From: Saccoglossus kowalevskii
Taxonomy: Eukaryota; Hemichordata; Enteropneusta; Harrimaniidae
Direction: 5' to 3'
Assembly: GCF_000003605.2 (NCBI RefSeq)
Contig: NW_003142801.1
Location: forward strand, 256,706-277,434
DNA length: 20,729 nt
Shown here: positions 6,215 to 20,590 of the stretch, piece by piece
Numbering within the stretch: the stretch's first letter is position 1
Layout of the letters: every line of letters starts with the position of its first letter
Position numbers and translations under genes: made by a program
Notes under the pieces: generated by a model
Seen by the model: the letters and a program-made list of their open reading frames with translations, nothing else
What the model was told of the DNA's origin: nothing
The model's database searches: none

Positions 6215-6420
6215 AGTATCGCTATGAGATTATCGATGTAACTCAAAGGTAGGACCAGCAAATCCGGTTTCGTTTCTAATGGACTTTATCACAGCCCAGT
6301 GTAGAGCAATTTAATTGTGAGTGTCCTTTTGACCGGACACTGACACCCGCATTGTAACTGTCGCATTCCTCTATTCTCTATGTAATGTTCTTTGCCCCGT
6401 AGGTTATAAACATATTAATA
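6215..6420 (+). other. 5' leader of the cyclin mRNA, probably with an intron
   Basis: From the likely start site to the ATG. A donor-like GTGAGT at 6317 and a good acceptor (TTCTTTGCCCCGTAG) ending at 6402 would remove 86 bases and leave an 18-base leader before the ATG on the second exon. An alternative donor, GTAGGA, lies at 6249. An in-frame TAG at 6400-6402 blocks extension of the protein upstream if the region is not spliced. Confidence 0.4.
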
Positions 6421-9400
6421 ATGTTACCTTCGACGAGTCAGGCTTGTGTGCAGTTCCAACCGTCAGCAGTGATGGTTGGAAAAACTGCGAGGCAGCCATT
6501 AGGTGACGTCATGGTGAACAACAAGTTGAGACAGGTGAGCGCTGATATGTATTTACTGTTGAAATTTAGCCGAGTCACAATGGCCACGTAGTAGCCCCAT
6601 TCCTTCTTTCCATTGTTTGCTTGCTTTGAGAAATTTGCCTAGTGTGTGTTCAACATTTAATTGATCCTAAATGAAAGTACACTGAATCGTGATGCCCGGG
6701 TTACTTCGTGTTTAGGTTTGTTATGGTGCTCATCTTTTTAAATAACATGCTCGTATGACGAGCATTTCAAACTGGTCTGCTCGTCAATGACTGTTCAGTA
6801 CTCGAAATGAACGTCTACAACTCTGGTCTTGTGGGTTTTTTTTTTATAGGTCAGTTTATATCTACTAAATAGTTGTGGAGTGTAACGAAGTGGGGCCTTG
6901 CCTCTTTCCGATCACTTAGTGCCCCATATTCCGTGATCACTTTATACTTGCAGGATATAGCATTTAGTTTATTTTTTCTGTGCCTTTTTCACATTCGCGG
7001 TAAACCGGCTTTCACCCTTTTATACACAGACCATTTTTATTGAGAAAAACTCCAAAAAATAAACTAGATATTCTAAGCAAGTCTATGGTCGCACTCAACC
7101 GGACACGTTATCGTGCAATGGATCTCAATACAGCAATGTATTTTTGAATACCTTTCCGAGTCGCTGTACTAACTTGTCACTGACTATTCCTCCTCAAATG
7201 GTCATCTGCTACAGTATACTTGGTTATGTCCAGTGAATCCACAATTTTTGCTAAAAAAACACGAACGACTATGTACGCTCGGGACTAAGTTCTTTAATCC
7301 ACACCAAGCAGAAAACTGCAAATTGCATCTACACGCAACAAAAAAAAAATCATTTTGACCCATTATTGCTTCCAATATAGATAAAAACCCTATCTGCCAT
7401 TATGCATGTTGTCGCCAGCCTGGCACCATTCACATCCATACGAATCCACTCGGCCGTTCTTTGCTACAACCGATCACTCGTTCGAATTTGGTATGAAACT
7501 AGCATATTCATCATAAACTTCCAAGACACTTATCCAATCGTACCAATTTGTTAAATTTTTAGTGCTGCGTTCGCTTGATCATTGCTTTCGGTTAAAAACT
7601 TCCTAATATGTGCTGTAATAAAGATCTCTGAAGTATTTGCGATGTTATATCGTGTCCCCTGGTTATACAATTTAGTTTCATAGAAAAATTACAATACTGT
7701 ATAAATACGTGTCCGGCCGTGACTACCTAGCAACCAAAATGCAAATTATATTTCGTTCAGGCATTCTTTTATCCTTTGAAAACAAATCTGTATGGGTATG
7801 TAATGTTTAAAAATTCAGTTACTCCGTACTACAGTAAAACTGATTCAACGAATTATGGAATGATGGTTATCAGCACGCGTTTTATCAAGGCTTGTACACA
7901 TATTACCAAATTGTAATAAAGTGGCAATACATATTCCAGTACTTGATTATTTTGTTTTTCAGATTCAAGAAGGAAAAGTCCTGTCCAAATTTAAATCCCG
8001 TTCCAGAATCCCATTGAGAAAGTATGTTGCAGAAAACAAACCCCATATTGGGGCAAAGAAACTACCTAATGGACGAACAAAAATGGCAAAACGCCTTAAG
8101 AAATCGCTGTCGTCTTTATCCCCAATTAAGGGCAAGTATTTTATTGTTTACCATATGGAGGGTGGCGTACGAAAGGTGCAAGTTTAGTGTTAAAGTTTTA
8201 ACAGACTCGTGATTGGATTCCTTTTTTGTAATCGAAAGTTTTGTCCTTGCAGAAAAGAACGAAGTGCAACTGGAGTCCCTTGTTAAGCTGAGCGATTTAG
8301 TAGACGAATGTTGCAATGCAGCGCCATCAATATCTACAAATGACCCATTTCAGTTTCCAGAATATCTCGATGACATTTACAAGTATTTACAGGTAATGAT
8401 AGCCAGTTAATATACGAACTGCAGTACAACTGAATATATATATATATTGGTGCAACAGATGCGCCAGCACGAACCATTGTGACTGAAATAGTTATGCAAA
8501 TTTAACTAGCTTGGCCGATAATTTGTTCTCTGTAGCATATGGAAAAAAAATCTTGTCCACTGAACTGTTATTGGAAAAACAAAGAAGCCTCGTGTAATGG
8601 CGTTAACAGGACCGTTCTACTAGATTGGTTAATTCAAGTACAGGCAAGTATCTTCTCCCATGAACATCATAAATCGACGCTTGGCAAAATGAACCTTGCT
8701 GAATATACATGAATATCAGCATAATGCTATTCCCAGCACTACATATTAGTGATTTAATTTTTACCATTATGTGAATAACATTCTAAGCTACACTAGGTTA
8801 GACAACTCATTGCATTCACGAAAGTTCAAGACGGGGTATTTGCAACTACCAACATTCGCGATTTCCAAAATTATTTGTTTGCAGTGTCACTTAGAACTAC
8901 TGGACGAGACGCTGTTTTTGACGATGAATTTGATAGACAAGTTTTTGACAGTTTCATCAATACCTCTGGATAAGCTTCAACTACTCGGCATCACGTGTCT
9001 ACTTATTGCATCAAAAATAGAAGAACGGTATCCTACTGAGGTAAGAAAACGTACTAAACTTAATACGAGTGTCGTGAAACAACTGCCTAAATTTGTCGTG
9101 TACCTTTCACGAATCTAAATATAAATGTAAAAAATACTACCCTTAAATTGACTTTCATTTCTACATATTCTAATTACCTTTGTAGGTGAACAATCTGTGT
9201 TTTCTGACCGCACATTCGTATTCAAGGAGGGATGTTCTTCGCATGGAAGCTATAGTTTTACGAAAAGTGGAATTTGAACTTAATTTTGTATCCCCTGTTC
9301 ATTTCTACGATTTATTGACAGCGATCACATCAGAAACAGATGACCAGGTAAGAAAATGACCAACGTCAGTTCTTCTACAATTTACAACTGATTAATTTAG

Positions 9401-10263
9401 ATAGTTTAATAAACTTTGCTAAATAAGATTAAAAAAAAATTGTATACGGAAATAGAGTCCCGCCGCAGGTCTAAAACCCGCCCAAATGCATACATTTTTG
9501 GAAACTCTAATTTCAAGAGCATTATCAAATCGTATTAACAATGGCCACAATTTTAAATGTATTAAATTTAAACTCCATGGGTGGTTCAAATTTGCATACT
9601 AATTGTAGCAAATTTCCCCATTCGTTGCCCAAAAGCTACATTTCTCGCTATTCTGACAGGTTCAACCATTAGGACGATACTTGATGGATCTGAGTATCTG
9701 CAACAATGACATTTTGAACTATCCACCATCACTACGTGCTGCATCGGCGCTATACTTCTCGAGGCAAATTATCTACGAGAATGGCGAGCAGCCGTGTTGG
9801 ACAGACTCTCTGACCGCTTTCATTGGATTGAATGAAGTAGATATGATTCAATGTGTCGATATATATGCACAGTTGTTATTAAAGGCACCAAAGGCCAAAC
9901 AACAGGCAAGTAACAACATTCAAGTTGTGTAAATTCAGATCGGTTAAAATAAGTTTCATCGAACGTATGCTTCAATAGTTCTATTGGCAAGAGTTTGTAG
10001 TAAATAAAATGCGCAAGTGTTAACTGCGGGCGCTACTCTATCCCACCTACCCCATAAAAACACCATTTTGCTACACAATTTTAGAGAAGCTGCTTGTGCT
10101 ACATGCAACTAGTACCAATCATTAATTTGCTATGCATTTTGTATTTCAGGCTGCTCGCACCAAATACAGCAGTAAATCCCGCTTCAATAGTCTTAGTCTT
10201 CATCCAATTCTCACCGAATCAAGAATATTGGCAGCGTTCAAAACGAATCTTTCCCATTCATAA
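6421..10263 (+). CDS. CCNB: Mitotic cyclin, B-type (G2/M cyclin), 8 coding exons, 402 aa
   Basis: Regulatory subunit of the CDK1 kinase that drives mitotic entry, destroyed by APC/C in anaphase (family knowledge). Exons: 6421-6534, 7963-8131, 8253-8392, 8536-8643, 8885-9040, 9186-9347, 9660-9905, 10150-10263. Intron phases are 0,1,0,0,0,0,0 and the frame holds throughout. Residues 24-30 (RQPLGDV) form a destruction box; the usual Asn is one place late (N33). There is no KEN box. Cyclin box 1 spans about 130-255: NRTVLLDWLIQVQ at 165-177 replaces the usual MRAIL-type patch, K221 (ASKIEE) and E250 (RMEAIVL) are the conserved CDK-contact Lys and Glu, and DKLQLLGITCLLIASK is typical. Cyclin box 2 follows (about 258-375), and the tail has AARTKYSSKSRF, as in B cyclins. 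Some stretches (EERYPTEV, LRMEAIVL, LKAPKAKQQ) resemble cyclin A, so A/B assignment is somewhat open. The start is the first ATG after an in-frame stop. Introns 2, 4 and 7 begin with GC. Confidence 0.93.
6535..7962 (+). other. Cyclin intron 1 (1,428 bp)
   Basis: Starts GTGAGC after CAG and ends TTGTTTTTCAG. AT-rich, with short A and T runs. I see no nested gene, RNA or repeat in it. Confidence 0.85.
8132..8137 (+). other. GC splice donor, cyclin intron 2
   Basis: The exon ends AAGG and the intron starts GCAAGTA. Intron 8132-8252 is phase 1: the last G joins AA at 8253 to make a Glu codon. The nearest GT, at 8136, would shift the frame. Confidence 0.85.
8644..8649 (+). other. GC splice donor, cyclin intron 4
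   Basis: CAG then GCAAGTA; intron 8644-8884, phase 0. Joining VQ to CHLELLDETL reproduces the uninterrupted cyclin B helix without gap or insertion. Using the GT at 8648 adds four bases and breaks the frame. Confidence 0.9.
9906..9911 (+). other. GC splice donor, cyclin intron 7
   Basis: CAG then GCAAGTA; intron 9906-10149, phase 0. Joining KAKQQ to AARTKYSSKS gives the expected C-terminal cyclin sequence. The GT at 9910 would shift the frame by one base. Confidence 0.9.
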
Positions 10264-10680
10264 GTAATATTTACAATATTGTATTCGTTTTTTTTTATTT
10301 TTCGTTTTAGTATATTTATTTTCAATGAGGTCGAGTCGAAATTAAAATCTGTCTGTTCGCAATTAAATATTTGGACGAACCTGTAAAGATCGACAAAGAC
10401 TTCCAGTGACATTTTTGATGTTTGTATCATATGTATATTTTGTAAAAATACAAGCACTAGCTAACAAATTAATATAAAATTTACTAAAATTAGAATGATT
10501 AATTCGCTCAATTGTAAATATTAACGATAGCATGATTCTGTAAATATGTTCTACCGATGTAAGTTTTTAACACTGATTGCTGGCACTTGTTTATATTTGT
10601 ATAGCACCAAACTGTAAAAACAAACCAGAGCTATATCTTTATTTTATCGAATACAATATCTGAATAAAGTTAAATAATTA
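10264..10680 (+). promoter_or_regulatory. Cyclin 3' UTR with Pumilio sites, CPE and poly(A) signal
   Basis: Two exact TGTAAATA sites (10513-10520 and 10539-10546) fit the Pumilio binding element UGUANAUA and are 26 bases apart. TTTTAT at 10642-10647 is a cytoplasmic polyadenylation element, 16 bases upstream of AATAAA at 10663-10668. A long T run with TTTTTAT lies at 10288-10298. An A-rich tract from about 10678 suggests cleavage there. Cyclin B mRNAs in flies and frogs are known to be translationally controlled by Pumilio/Nanos and CPEB. The sites are visible; the control is inferred. Confidence 0.65.
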
Positions 10681-12261: not shown

Positions 12262-13420
12262 TTTATTTCCATCAATAACACTTGTGGTGGCCTACTTCAA
12301 TATTAAGGATGTTGTCAATCAGTCGGACATCTAGATCTGTGTTTTCAAGTTTTGTAAGATAGGCTTCCAAAACGAAATGGTTCTATAAGTTCAGAGTTTG
12401 TTTTTCCATTAGTTGAGGCTCTACTGTCATTGAAAATTTCAGTTTTCTAATGTAAAACAAAAGACGTTTGAGGTTATTGTGGATTTGGGTAACTTGAGAT
12501 GGATTCACTTTACCTTATCAGTGAATATAGCTGACTTTGCTTGGTGTCATTCAGCAAGGAAGTTACTTTTAGATACCATTTGGTAATTGCTTTATCAACC
12601 AAATAGGCTTCCATTTACAGTGAGTTTGTGGAATTCTTAGTTCGGTCAAACTATTCAATACTTAATTTAATATTGTAAGAGACGCCTAACAGAAATCTAC
12701 AAAAACTCGTATGAACATCTTAAGTTTCATCACTGGAGACATCACAGCCATAAACTAAAATCGGTCTGATTAGTGTATATAAAAAAACGAGAGAAAAAGT
12801 GAAATGTTGGAATTTTGATTAAATCCAATTTTTTATTTCAAAGAAAAAAGGCTCTTTCTAAGTTATTAGAGCCCCTCTTCACATTTACCATTTACACGAA
12901 TCTGTAATTTGTAAGATCTAACCCTACTAATTTATGTTTCTCAAAGAAAATACCACTGTCTAGATTTGTTTGTAATTTCCACGTGTTGACTGCGGGTTTC
13001 CACGTGTTGACTGCGGGTTTCCACGTGTTGACGGCGGGTTTCCACGTGTTGACGGCGGGTTTCCACGTGTTGACGGCGGGTTTCCACGTGTTGACGGCGG
13101 GTTTCCACGTGTTGACTGCGGGTTTCCACGTGTTGACTGCGGGTTTCCACGTGTTGACTGCGGGTTTCCACGTGTTGACATACAATGAAAGATTGTCAAC
13201 ACTGCCTTGTAAACCCTGTGTTTTCGACATGACAGTATCATCAGTATAGAGCAGACAGAGATGAGTGGATCACATGTATCAGAACTGACGATTTTCAGTA
13301 AATCATTTTACAGCCTTGCTTGACACCTTTGTCAGAATGAAAATTCTGTTAACCCATCCTCACATTCAAGTTTATATTTATCTTTACTATCCTTAAAACG
13401 TTTTACGTACATGGAACCTG
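12262..13420 (-). pseudogene. Decayed non-LTR retrotransposon (LINE), reverse transcriptase and C-terminus
   Basis: Read on the minus strand. LECEDGLTE and then GVKQGC at 13327-13310 match the RT motif before the palm, and LYTDDTVM at 13251-13228 is the catalytic YxDD box (Tyr-Thr-Asp-Asp). SKTQGLQGSVDNLSLYVNTWK follows in the order usual for LINE RTs (continuing past a space in the alignment at the repeat), then the 21-bp array, then NTWKLQTNLDSGIFFEKHKL to a stop at 12892. Further on, frames in 12614-12272 (MEAYLVDKAITKWYLKVTS; LKRLLFYIRKLKF; RLIDNILNIEVGHHK) resemble a LINE C-terminal region, with at least one frameshift and a TAG at 12383-12385. TTTATT at 12262-12267 (minus AATAAA) follows the final stop. 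Frameshifts and stops show it is dead. The 5' part, including the endonuclease, is absent. Confidence 0.78.
12977..13179. repeat. 21-bp minisatellite inside the LINE, about 10 copies
   Basis: CACGTG recurs at 12980, 13001, 13022, 13043, 13064, 13085, 13106, 13127, 13148 and 13169, exactly 21 bp apart. On the minus strand each unit encodes VNTWKPA in frame with the reverse transcriptase. Units 3-6 read GACGGCGGG while the others read GACTGCGGG, so the variants form one central block. The unit is unrelated to the 21-bp array at position 1. Confidence 0.97.
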
Positions 13421-13880
13421 AACATTGCTACAATCTAAGAGAAATTCTAGTAAGGAGTTGTTAAAATTATTTGATTGGCATATCAAAATCCTTGAATAGA
13501 ACATGTTCTATATTCACCAAAACAGCGGTGCTGTGTTTCTAGGCACACAACGAAAAATGCAGTCGAACTCGGCCACATGTAATCGCCTGGTGTGAAAAAC
13601 ACAGACCACGGTTACTAAAAAAAAAACTCCCATCTTCGACCGTCTGGTTTTGTTAAAAACAAATGAACAGTGTTTCAATTTGTAAGCCATTTTGTAGGAA
13701 GCACCATTTATTTTCAATGCATTTTACAAAAGTATTCGAATACAATAATTTCAGACAGTAGTTTATTTTACTGTGATAAAACATCGAGTACCGACAAAAC
13801 TGCTGAGTCACTGAAATCAACAACACTCGTATTTGTTATTTTAATGTTCTCGGCGATAGCTACGTAAATTCCACTTTGAT
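13421..13880. other. Region between the two LINE relics
   Basis: Probably decayed retrotransposon tail. On the minus strand a frame from 13998 to a stop at 13768 is open for 76 codons (includes KSGIRDSFYKIGRDAIKNQS and SVVDFSDSAVLSVLDVLSQ). It overlaps the tail of the neighbouring LINE in another frame. I do not recognise it and cannot tell whether it is a real exon. Confidence 0.35.
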
Positions 13881-14676
13881 TTTTTATAGCATCTCTTCCA
13901 ATTTTGTAAAATGAATCTCTGATCCCAGATTTCTGCACTATATCACAATATTGCTTTTTCGTATCGTGCCCGTTTTGCTTTTGTAAAATTCCCTGATGTC
14001 ATCAATATTCCAAGGTAGATGTAGTTTGTAACACAATGTTTTTATTGCCATAGTTCCACGTGTCTGTTTTCAGTGATCTTTTACTAAATGTCATGACTTT
14101 CGTTTTAGACAAATTGATTTCTAGTTTCCATTTGATAACAGTATGTGTGAAATTTCATTTTGTAATCCAGATGATGTATGCGACACAAGGTCCAAGTAAT
14201 CTGCATAGAGAATTGATTGTCTAAAACGGCTGTTCTTTACTAAAATCAAAATAAGGTGATTAATAAACAAGTTCAACTTACACATTCCTGTTTCACACCC
14301 TTTATTAATATTAAATATTTCTGTACTTTTATTTTCAATTTTAATATACATGCATTTAATTAATTTATATAGTTTACCATTTCCTATATTTAATAATTTG
14401 TAGAACAGATCAGTTCTCCATCAATCTAATTAAAATCCGATGTAGGTATGAGGCTCCAATTTTTTTTTATATATATATATAACCCTTTATATTATATTTA
14501 TTTGTATTTTAGTTTGAATATGTCGATTTTTTTTTGGTTTTACCAAAAAAATTGACATACCTACATCGGATTTTAATCAGATTGGTACCTATGCTACTGG
14601 TTACAGAGATTCCTCTATAATTTACATAATGACATATGGTAGTCCCTGTTGGAATCAGAGGAAATAAAGAATTATG
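13880..14676 (-). pseudogene. Second decayed LINE, split by a foldback element
   Basis: On the minus strand the 5' piece (14676-14584) reads FPLIPTG then VNYRGISVTSSIG, the start of a LINE reverse transcriptase (usual form NYRPISLTS-CLGK). The 3' piece (14420 to about 13880) resumes with WRTDLFYKLLNIGNGKLYKL, then NKGCETGMCKLNLFINHLIL, LYADYLDLVSHTSSGLQNE (14210 onward) and SKTKVMTF at 14109-14086. After a frameshift come YLGI at 14017-14006 and SGNFTKAKRARYEKA. The catalytic YADD is YADY and the QG of the preceding motif is lost, so the enzyme is dead. About 80 codons between SSIG and WRTDLF (fingers and first palm motif) are missing. It is a different family copy from the relic at 12.3-13.4 kb, in the same orientation. 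Confidence 0.85.
14421..14585. repeat. 165-bp foldback element (MITE-like) with 30-bp inverted ends
   Basis: The left arm 14421-14450 and right arm 14556-14585 are reverse complements at 28 of 30 positions; both carry ATTAAAATCCGATGTAGG or its complement. The centre is T-rich with a TA run near 14470, and CCAATTTTTTT pairs further with AAAAAAATTG after a small offset. It sits exactly between the two LINE pieces and has no coding capacity. Confidence 0.9.
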
Positions 14677-17698: not shown

Positions 17699-18619
17699 CT
17701 ATTTGCCACTTTCTCCTCTGGCTTCATACATCATCTTAATAGCCTGAAAGGTTAGACAGAAATCAGCGTAACAATTGTTATGAACAAATCAATAATAAAA
17801 ATTATACATTTTACCATTCCGTAAAAAACTGTATTTGCTTTTGTTTGATCATCTAAAATTTCACTTATTTGGAATAAACATTGAATGTGTTTGATTTGAA
17901 CACTTTCCTTTCTTAAACTTAAACTCAATTGTCAATAAACTTAATTGTCTTGAACTGTATTATATAGTTTGGTTTGCTGCAAAAAGTTGTGTTGATTATA
18001 TGTCAGTAGTGCTATCAGAATACACATTGATATTGAAATTAACAGTATCATTAGTGAAAAGTCGCTTTGATAAACTGTGACTACAGCGATGTTAAAAAAC
18101 GGTTACCAGGATATAGAATTACAAGAACCATTCCTATACAGGGTTTTAAAATCACACAGCTTGTGCCTTGTGAACTCAAAATCTTCTCATTCTATAACCT
18201 ATACTTACATACCTTTTGCATTGCAACAATCCAAGCAACACTCTGTTTCTTATTAGAGCTTTCGGACACTTCAAATTTAATCTGTCTTATTAAAGACTGG
18301 TCTTTGTATTTCAGTGTTATTCCTTTTGGTATAGTAGGCCCTTAAATGAAACAAATAAGAAAGTCTGTATATTTTGCCTGTAAATCGGAGTCACCAATGA
18401 AGGTACACAATGGAATGCATAGATACATACAAAAGGGTAGTAGTACATATAGGAAGATATGCAATAAAAACAATTATGTTATTCAACATAAACGAGACAG
18501 GAAATTGGCACTTGTAAAACATTAAAAAACAAGATCAAACTAAGACACAACAATTACCATTGGGAAGTGACTCTGCATCAATTGGACTGAAGAATGAAAT
18601 CTTTTGTTTGTTACCACCA
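17699..18619 (-). CDS. Last three exons of an unrecognised minus-strand gene
   Basis: Exons on the minus strand: 18619-18558, 18340-18213 and 17743-17699. Both introns are GT-AG (donors GTAATT and GTATGT; acceptors CATTTAAG and CCTTTCAG) and the phases match (1, then 0), giving 77 joined residues without a stop. The reading includes GGNKQKISFFSPIDAESLPN, then GPTIPKGITLKYKDQSLIRQ, IKFEVSESSNKKQSVAWIV and AMQKAIKMMYEARGESGK before TAG. It is hydrophilic and mixed alpha/beta in character, with no signal peptide or membrane segment. The Trp-bearing C-terminal helix (AWIVAMQKAIK) vaguely recalls the end of a PH-like domain, but I do not recognise the family. Earlier exons should lie above 18620 or outside the window. 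A better acceptor at about 18690 opens a different frame (EREFVITLSKKHLEIV), which does not join in phase. Confidence 0.7.
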
Positions 18620-19572: not shown

Positions 19573-19757
19573 CATAGTGTCAGTACATAATAGTGCAACA
19601 TAGTGTCAGTACATAATAGTGCAACATAGTGTCAGTACATAAGAGTGCAACATAGTGTCAGTACATAAGAGTGCAACATAGTGTCAGTACATAATAGTGC
19701 AACATAGTGTCAGTACATAATAGTGCAGCATAGTGTCAGTACATAATAGTGCAACAT
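19573..19757. repeat. 26-bp satellite, seven copies
   Basis: CATAGTGTCAGTACATAA recurs at 19573, 19599, 19625, 19651, 19677, 19703 and 19729, each followed by a TAGTGCAA-type end. Copies 3 and 4 read AAGAGTGCAA and copy 6 has GCAG. The array ends in a partial CATA. Confidence 0.97.
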
Positions 19758-20400
19758 ATTTAATACAATGATAAATGCATAGAAACAGCCACAATAAAAA
19801 AAGACAAAGTACAGTATACCTGATTATATACAATCATATGCAAATAATATACAATACAGAGCACAACTGCTACATGTACAATAGTAACGTTGTGACCATT
19901 ACAAACTATACAAATTGATTAAGGTCATAGACTCACCAGAATCCCATCATCAAAAAGAAATCATGTTTAATCCATGAGTGAATGAACATGAAATACAAAT
20001 ATGAACGAGATATAATAATAAAATTTATGACATTAGCTAATGCTCTCAAATCTGTGATAAATTGTGGGAATACAAATGCACTCACAACACAGTGTTCAAC
20101 TTCTTTAGCTATATCCTCAGTAAATACAAGAATGATTGATCTTTATTCAAGTTTAGGGGCATGATAAATACCAGGATGTTGTCACTGGTTATTACTGGTT
20201 GTTACATCGGACTCCTACGAGCGGTTGAACATTAAAAAGGATTTGCCCCCCTACCATAGGTGTCACAGACTAAATGGGAAAGTTAAAGCAGAGGGGTTGT
20301 CACCTGAAAACATGCACGCTAAAAACACAGAGGCTCATGGGACATTTGTAAACAACAACATGCTATAACCATCTGCAAAATGCACTGGCTGAATTTCATT
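19758..20400. other. AT-rich DNA with ambiguous open frames near 20.0-20.16 kb
   Basis: At about 19982-20164 both strands are open. Plus reads TLANALKSVINCGNTNALTT and onward to a stop; minus reads FTEDIAKEVEHCVVSAFVF then PQFITDLRALANVIN. Neither has clear splice sites or a family I recognise, so no gene is called. Confidence 0.4.
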
Positions 20401-20590
20401 TACTCACAGCAGGGTTCTCCCCAGGGCTTTTTAGCGCCGAGGTCCGCGGCGCTATACCTGTGAATCTCGGCGCTTCACTTGGGACCTCGGCGCTATGTGT
20501 TCCCACCTCGGCGCTTGATTTCATATTCGACATGCCAATATCAGATGTGAAAAATCTTTGTTCGCCACGTCGGTCGGCCCCGACCGTCAC
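20401..20590 (-). repeat. GC-rich interspersed-repeat-like block with repeated CTCGGCGCT
   Basis: GC content jumps here. CTCGGCGCT occurs at 20466, 20486 and 20507, its reverse form AGCGCCGAGG is at 20433, and a variant GCGGCGCT ends at 20453. GCAGGGTTCTCCCCAGGG at 20409 onward reads PGENPA on the minus strand, an ending I associate with dispersed repeats in animal genomes. The minus frame 20590-20396 is open (includes SSAEVGTHSAEVPSEAPRF) but looks repeat-derived. A short palindrome CGGTCGG/CCGACCG lies at 20571-20586. Confidence 0.4.

Follow-up and report, generated by a model that had tools for sequence, protein, structure and literature searches.

Predicted GC-AG introns, two firm and one probable, in a seven-intron cyclin B gene

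Organization of the locus

The window (the whole stretch of DNA analyzed, 20,729 nt) carries a B-type cyclin gene comprising eight coding exons on the forward strand, which join into a single open frame of 402 a.a. plus the stop codon (Table 1). The three junctions singled out in a preliminary description of this DNA (8131/8253, 8643/8885, and 9905/10150) are all present, with one open frame running across the eight exons. An in-frame stop at 6400-6402 lies upstream of the ATG at 6421, and the frame is open from a second ATG at 6511 back to the first, which adds 30 residues, including a destruction-box-like motif. Most of the tests described below (Pfam, solved structures, U1 pairing, and alternative junctions) used a 372-a.a. 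model starting at 6511, whose frame is identical to that of the 402-a.a. product.

In this model, Pfam Cyclin_N and Cyclin_C were matched at 128.7 and 83.2 bits, respectively (cut-offs 23 and 22). Compared with proteins of solved structure, the product scored highest against cyclin B1 (152.9 bits), followed by cyclins A2 (136.1), F (78.3), D1 (74.4), and E1 (63.6), a ranking that reflects best scores against solved chains and is not tree-based. By its sequence, the gene product is accordingly classed as a predicted B-type cyclin, nearer cyclin B than cyclins A, D, E, or F. The stretch RQPLGDVMVN in exon 1 is similar to RTALGDIGN of cyclin B1, with the asparagine falling one residue later. A stretch of the RTALGDIGN kind is what we take to be the destruction box of cyclin B, and the exon 1 stretch appears to resemble it. 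An AATAAA occurs 3′ of the gene at 10663-10668; since the window has 65 such hexamers, this one is no evidence by itself.

Table 1. Predicted exons and introns of the cyclin B gene and of the ZFYVE21 gene, numbered from the first position of the window
Feature	Positions	Strand	Sites and remarks
Exon 1 (coding part)	6421-6534	+	ATG at 6421; RQPLGDVMVN
Intron 1, GT-AG	6535-7962	+	donor CAG/GTGAGC
Exon 2	7963-8131	+	phase 1 end at GG/GCAAGTA
Intron 2, GC-AG (probable), 121 nt	8132-8252	+	donor AGG/GCAAGTAT, acceptor TTGCAG; basis frame and site quality, not domain homology
Exon 3	8253-8392	+	
Intron 3, GT-AG	8393-8535	+	donor CAG/GTAATG
Exon 4	8536-8643	+	C-terminal end ...DWLIQVQ
Intron 4, GC-AG, 241 nt	8644-8884	+	donor CAG/GCAAGTAT, acceptor TTGCAG; interrupts DWLIQVQ/CHLELL
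Exon 5	8885-9040	+	
Intron 5, GT-AG	9041-9185	+	donor GAG/GTAAGA
Exon 6	9186-9347	+	
Intron 6, GT-AG	9348-9659	+	donor CAG/GTAAGA
Exon 7	9660-9905	+	C-terminal end ...LLLKAPKAKQQ
Intron 7, GC-AG, 244 nt	9906-10149	+	donor CAG/GCAAGTAA, acceptor TTTCAG
Exon 8 (coding part)	10150-10263	+	with stop codon
ZFYVE21 gene, 3′ part	17699-18600	-	Pfam ZFYVE21_C, 44.4 bits
ZFYVE21 exons	18600-18558, 18340-18213, 17743-17699	-	separated by two GT-AG introns

The window also holds the 3′ part of a ZFYVE21 gene, whose two introns are the only other whole introns identified. Taken with the cyclin and the intron structure, this gene points to an animal source for the DNA. No upstream exon of this gene was seen in the open frames, which were inspected by eye and in one case by Pfam. 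Among the 153 listed open frames of the window, seven were scanned for further genes and none rose above the Pfam cut-offs, the best sub-threshold matches being to PolB_N (E 0.029) and EGF (E 0.24). Relatives were also sought in viral and prokaryote contig collections, where 7 and 22 pattern matches were obtained and none proved to be a relative by tblastn, a result that says little.

Repeats are found in several other parts of the window. Minisatellite arrays lie at 1-305, 606-1070, 12976-13179, and 19573-19758 (periods 21, 59, 21, and 26; 94-98% matches), along with a fifth, weak array (73%) at 20447-20496. A perfect 20-base inverted repeat (14430-14449/14557-14576, with 107 bases between the arms) is possibly a small foldback element. 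On the reverse strand at 13768-14420, open frames resembled reverse transcriptase remnants by eye (...QSILYADYLDLVSHTSSGLQNEIS...); for two of these frames, Pfam returned nothing at E values up to 1.

Placement of the GC junctions

The preliminary description had assigned GC donors to introns 2, 4, and 7 on the grounds that the frame and the cyclin alignment leave no other choice. To a large extent this holds for introns 4 and 7, where the GC junction gives the best Pfam fit; intron 2 lies outside the Cyclin_N match, has GT alternatives, and is only probable. The further statement that splicing at the GT four bases downstream disrupts the frame is correct, provided that the acceptor is kept.

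Alternatives to each GC junction were defined as in-frame, stop-free GT-AG combinations (donor -90 to +120, acceptor within 90). There are 33 for intron 4 and 21 for intron 7 (54 together), and Pfam scoring covered seven of the 54 (3/33 and 4/21, respectively), with residues 61 onward of the 372-a.a. model as input. At intron 4, Cyclin_N reached 129.1 bits with the GC donor vs. 122.6, 121.0, and 91.1 bits with the three GT alternatives; at intron 7, Cyclin_C reached 83.6 bits with the GC donor vs. 75.0, 70.0, 68.5, and 51.4 bits with the four. Shifting either junction to a scored GT alternative meant a loss of 6.5 to 38 bits in all seven cases. An ungapped alignment to cyclin B1 (DWLIQVQCHLELLDETL on DWLVQVQMKFRLLQETM) is likewise obtained across the intron 4 GC junction. 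On frame and Pfam fit, introns 4 and 7 are predicted with high confidence to be spliced as GC-AG introns. The preliminary reading may have been led by the donor motif, but neither the frame nor the domain fit depends on that motif at these two introns.

The Pfam Cyclin_N match begins at residue 105 of the 372-a.a. model, downstream of the intron 2 junction, and the cyclin alignment therefore does not decide this intron. Over the same search range, intron 2 has 25 in-frame, stop-free GT-AG alternatives. These include donor 8136 with acceptor 8238, which adds six residues, and donor 8162 with acceptor 8252, which adds ten residues and whose predicted U1 pairing (-6.6 kcal/mol) is near the -7.2 kcal/mol of the GC site. 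Such options, in an N-terminal region beyond the Pfam match, lend some weight to the reading that one junction, likeliest that of intron 2, is truly GT-AG elsewhere, in which case the gene would contain two GC-AG introns. Set against this, the alternatives have as donor AGG/GTGGCG, or CAA/GTATTT with a GAAAG acceptor, compared to AGG/GCAAGTAT and TTGCAG at the GC site, which also shows the best U1 energy among them. The GT alternatives thus look like poorer splice sites; we regard intron 2 as a probable GC-AG intron and a displaced GT-AG junction as rather unlikely.

U1 pairing and donor context

Predicted U1 pairing of the GC donors was -9.3 (intron 4), -9.0 (intron 7), and -7.2 kcal/mol (intron 2), compared with -11.1, -8.1, -9.6, and -11.0 kcal/mol for the GT donors of introns 1, 3, 5, and 6, all of these being model values for isolated 11-mers against the U1 5′ end. 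Introns 4 and 7 fall inside the range of the GT donors (-8.1 to -11.1), and intron 2 has the weakest pairing in the gene. The match to the 11-base U1 complement is 10/11 for intron 4, 9/11 for intron 7, and 8/11 for intron 2. Placing a T at +2 in the GC-donor 11-mers gave -14.0, -13.7, and -11.9 kcal/mol, in each case stronger pairing than at any of the gene's four GT donors.

Among the 653 GC dinucleotides on the forward strand of the window, the three GC donors take the first three places for predicted U1 pairing, which bears out the earlier claim that their context compensates for the mismatch to U1. This ranking supports their reading as real U2-type GC-AG introns with compensated donors, as far as modeled energies go. 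When frame-permitted GT, GC, AT, and GA sites within -90/+120 were compared using the same acceptor, the chosen donor had the best U1 energy in six of six introns (introns 2 to 7).

The common AG/GCAAGTA context proposed for the three donors is found at introns 4 and 7 (CAG/GCAAGTA) and fails at intron 2, whose exonic context is GG/GCAAGTA, without the exonic AG. The motif GGCAAGTA occurs in four copies in the window vs. 0.38 expected (0 of 100 shuffles reach four), with three of the four copies being the GC donors; GCAAGT as a plain hexamer shows no enrichment (12 vs. 9.5 expected). Within the gene, only the three GC introns have a GYAAGT donor with an inner GT; the GT donors read GTGAGC, GTAATG, GTAAGA, and GTAAGA.

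Two other origins were considered and rejected. The donors (GCAAGTA vs. the ATATCC-type consensus given in PMC3033335) do not fit U12-type introns. For an Introner or duplicated-intron origin, among the 15 pairs of introns 2 to 7 only introns 2 and 4 scored above shuffles (24 vs. a shuffle maximum of 23, n = 100), and the repeat they share is the donor region itself. No RNA gene, U1 included, was found in the window at the gathering score.

Origin of the cluster and comparison with known GC-AG introns

On average, GC-AG introns are reported to outnumber every other non-GT-AG class in animals, with a mean share of 0.983% over 489 animal genomes (PMC7072748), in agreement with the value of about 1% assumed at the outset. 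More than two GC-AG introns per transcript are reported for few human or mouse protein-coding genes (PMC7242645). At the 0.983% rate, the probability for a preselected gene is 3.2e-5 for at least three GC introns of seven and 2.0e-3 for at least two; with between-gene rate variation (beta-binomial, rho 0.01 to 0.1), the former becomes 1.8e-4 to 3.3e-3. About 5.3 genes with at least three GC introns would be expected per 20,000 at this rate (geometric intron number, mean 6.9), and at a rate of 3.46%, the number would be 26 for every 20,000 seven-intron genes. Under these models, a cluster of three in seven should be rare for any given gene, yet expected somewhere in a genome. Plain chance needs a scan of many genes because of the 3.2e-5 for a preselected one, and the cluster would thus reflect either chance acting over many scanned genes or a higher use of GC-AG introns in the lineage. 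Our literature search returned, among the matches listed, no report of GC-AG introns in a cyclin B gene.

We consider it probable that these are ordinary U2-type GC-AG introns (two firm, one probable) in an intact cyclin B gene, each derived by a T to C change at +2 and spliced constitutively. Each of the three introns would have started with an unusually strong GT donor; the subsequent T to C change at intron position +2 would have been tolerable through the near-complete U1 pairing of the remaining donor bases, leaving the GC introns most likely constitutively spliced and the change near-neutral. The GC donors lie where a GT would have strength to spare, because their GT versions (-11.9 to -14.0 kcal/mol) outpair the GT donors of the gene. 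The sequence shows the gene structure, the frame, the fit of introns 4 and 7 to the cyclin domains, and the predicted U1 pairing, whereas the actual splicing, the direction of the change, the constitutive use, and the near-neutrality are inferred. In mammals, GC donors are reported to keep nearer to the consensus, with 298 GT to GC changes vs. 40 in the opposite direction, and neutral fixation of GT to GC in a strong context is described as a plausible scenario (PMC2490688). Counting against this explanation is intron 2, the weakest of the seven donors, for which the evidence is frame and site quality.

A raised genome-wide share of GC-AG introns in the lineage (several per cent or more), under which three per gene would be unremarkable, is compatible with the T to C mechanism and overlaps the explanation above; we rate it as less likely than not. 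The observed 3/7 is far above 0.98%, and three of the nine introns identified in the window are GC (95% Clopper-Pearson interval 7.5 to 70%), in a window chosen because of the cyclin gene. High shares are reported for the cyst nematode Globodera rostochiensis (3.46%; PMC4901422) and for the algae Aureococcus (39.6%) and Micromonas pusilla (22.2%), although the algal rates are tied in the same source to high genomic G+C (PMC3033335), and this window has 35% G+C. Also against a raised share, both whole introns of ZFYVE21 are GT-AG (donors -8.4 and -5.1 kcal/mol), two introns saying little, and a published 8.9% in Heterorhabditis is reported to have fallen to 0.8% after re-annotation (PMC5906903). 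A still more extreme version, an animal lineage combining an AT-rich genome with GC donors at 10% or more of all introns, and perhaps with a changed U1 snRNP as well, seems improbable; no such animal lineage was found in the literature covered.

The preliminary description had also raised selection for weak, regulated splicing of a cell-cycle gene. Such regulation could act, for example, through the +4 GT or intron retention, with a frameshift and decay as the outcome. GC donors are associated with alternative splicing (PMC7242645, PMC2490688). Mammalian genes with GC-AG introns are reported to undergo alternative splicing more frequently, with donors that are on average weaker (PMC7242645), and these reported links fit a regulated reading too. 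If splicing at introns 2 and 4 shifted to the +4 GT, stops would arise 780 and 477 nt ahead of the last junction (for intron 7, the stop would lie within the last exon), and the inner GT is confined within the gene to the three GC introns. Speaking against regulation, the +4 GT competitors are weak (-3.0 to -3.4 kcal/mol), retention of any of introns 2 to 7, GT or GC, leads to an in-frame stop and does not single out the GC introns, and GCAAGT is what compensation alone predicts. Intron 2 pairs most weakly (-7.2 kcal/mol); for introns 4 and 7, which pair within the range of the GT donors, selection for weak, regulated splicing is not supported. Selection for regulated splicing thus has the least support when compared with chance or a GC-AG-richer lineage, and we judge it improbable. 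Errors in base calling or assembly, or polymorphism in the genome, would be conceivable at the three +2 positions in that a single sequence lies behind all three calls; however, an identical C at +2 of three donors, with the frame otherwise intact, would be hard to obtain by error, and splice-site sequence variants are reported to average far below 1% (PMC7072748), making this explanation very improbable.

For gene prediction, the locus serves as a warning, given that GT-only models would make two or three mistakes in this cyclin. Were the lineage GC-AG-rich, it would make it possible to test how animals evolve tolerance at donor position +2.

Like known U2-type GC-AG introns, those predicted here start with GC, end with AG, and have donors otherwise near CAG/GTAAGT and complementary to U1; they differ in that two firm cases and one probable case occur in one seven-intron gene. 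In Globodera, introns of both kinds share the reported donor consensus CAGG[T|C]AAGT, a likeness to this gene, whereas the share there (~3.5%) was measured genome-wide and here one gene was read (PMC4901422). Intron 10 of C. elegans let-2 likewise has a GC donor in a protein-coding animal gene; its regulation is reported to have been shown by donor replacement (PMC2490688), in contrast to the present case, which is drawn from sequence alone.
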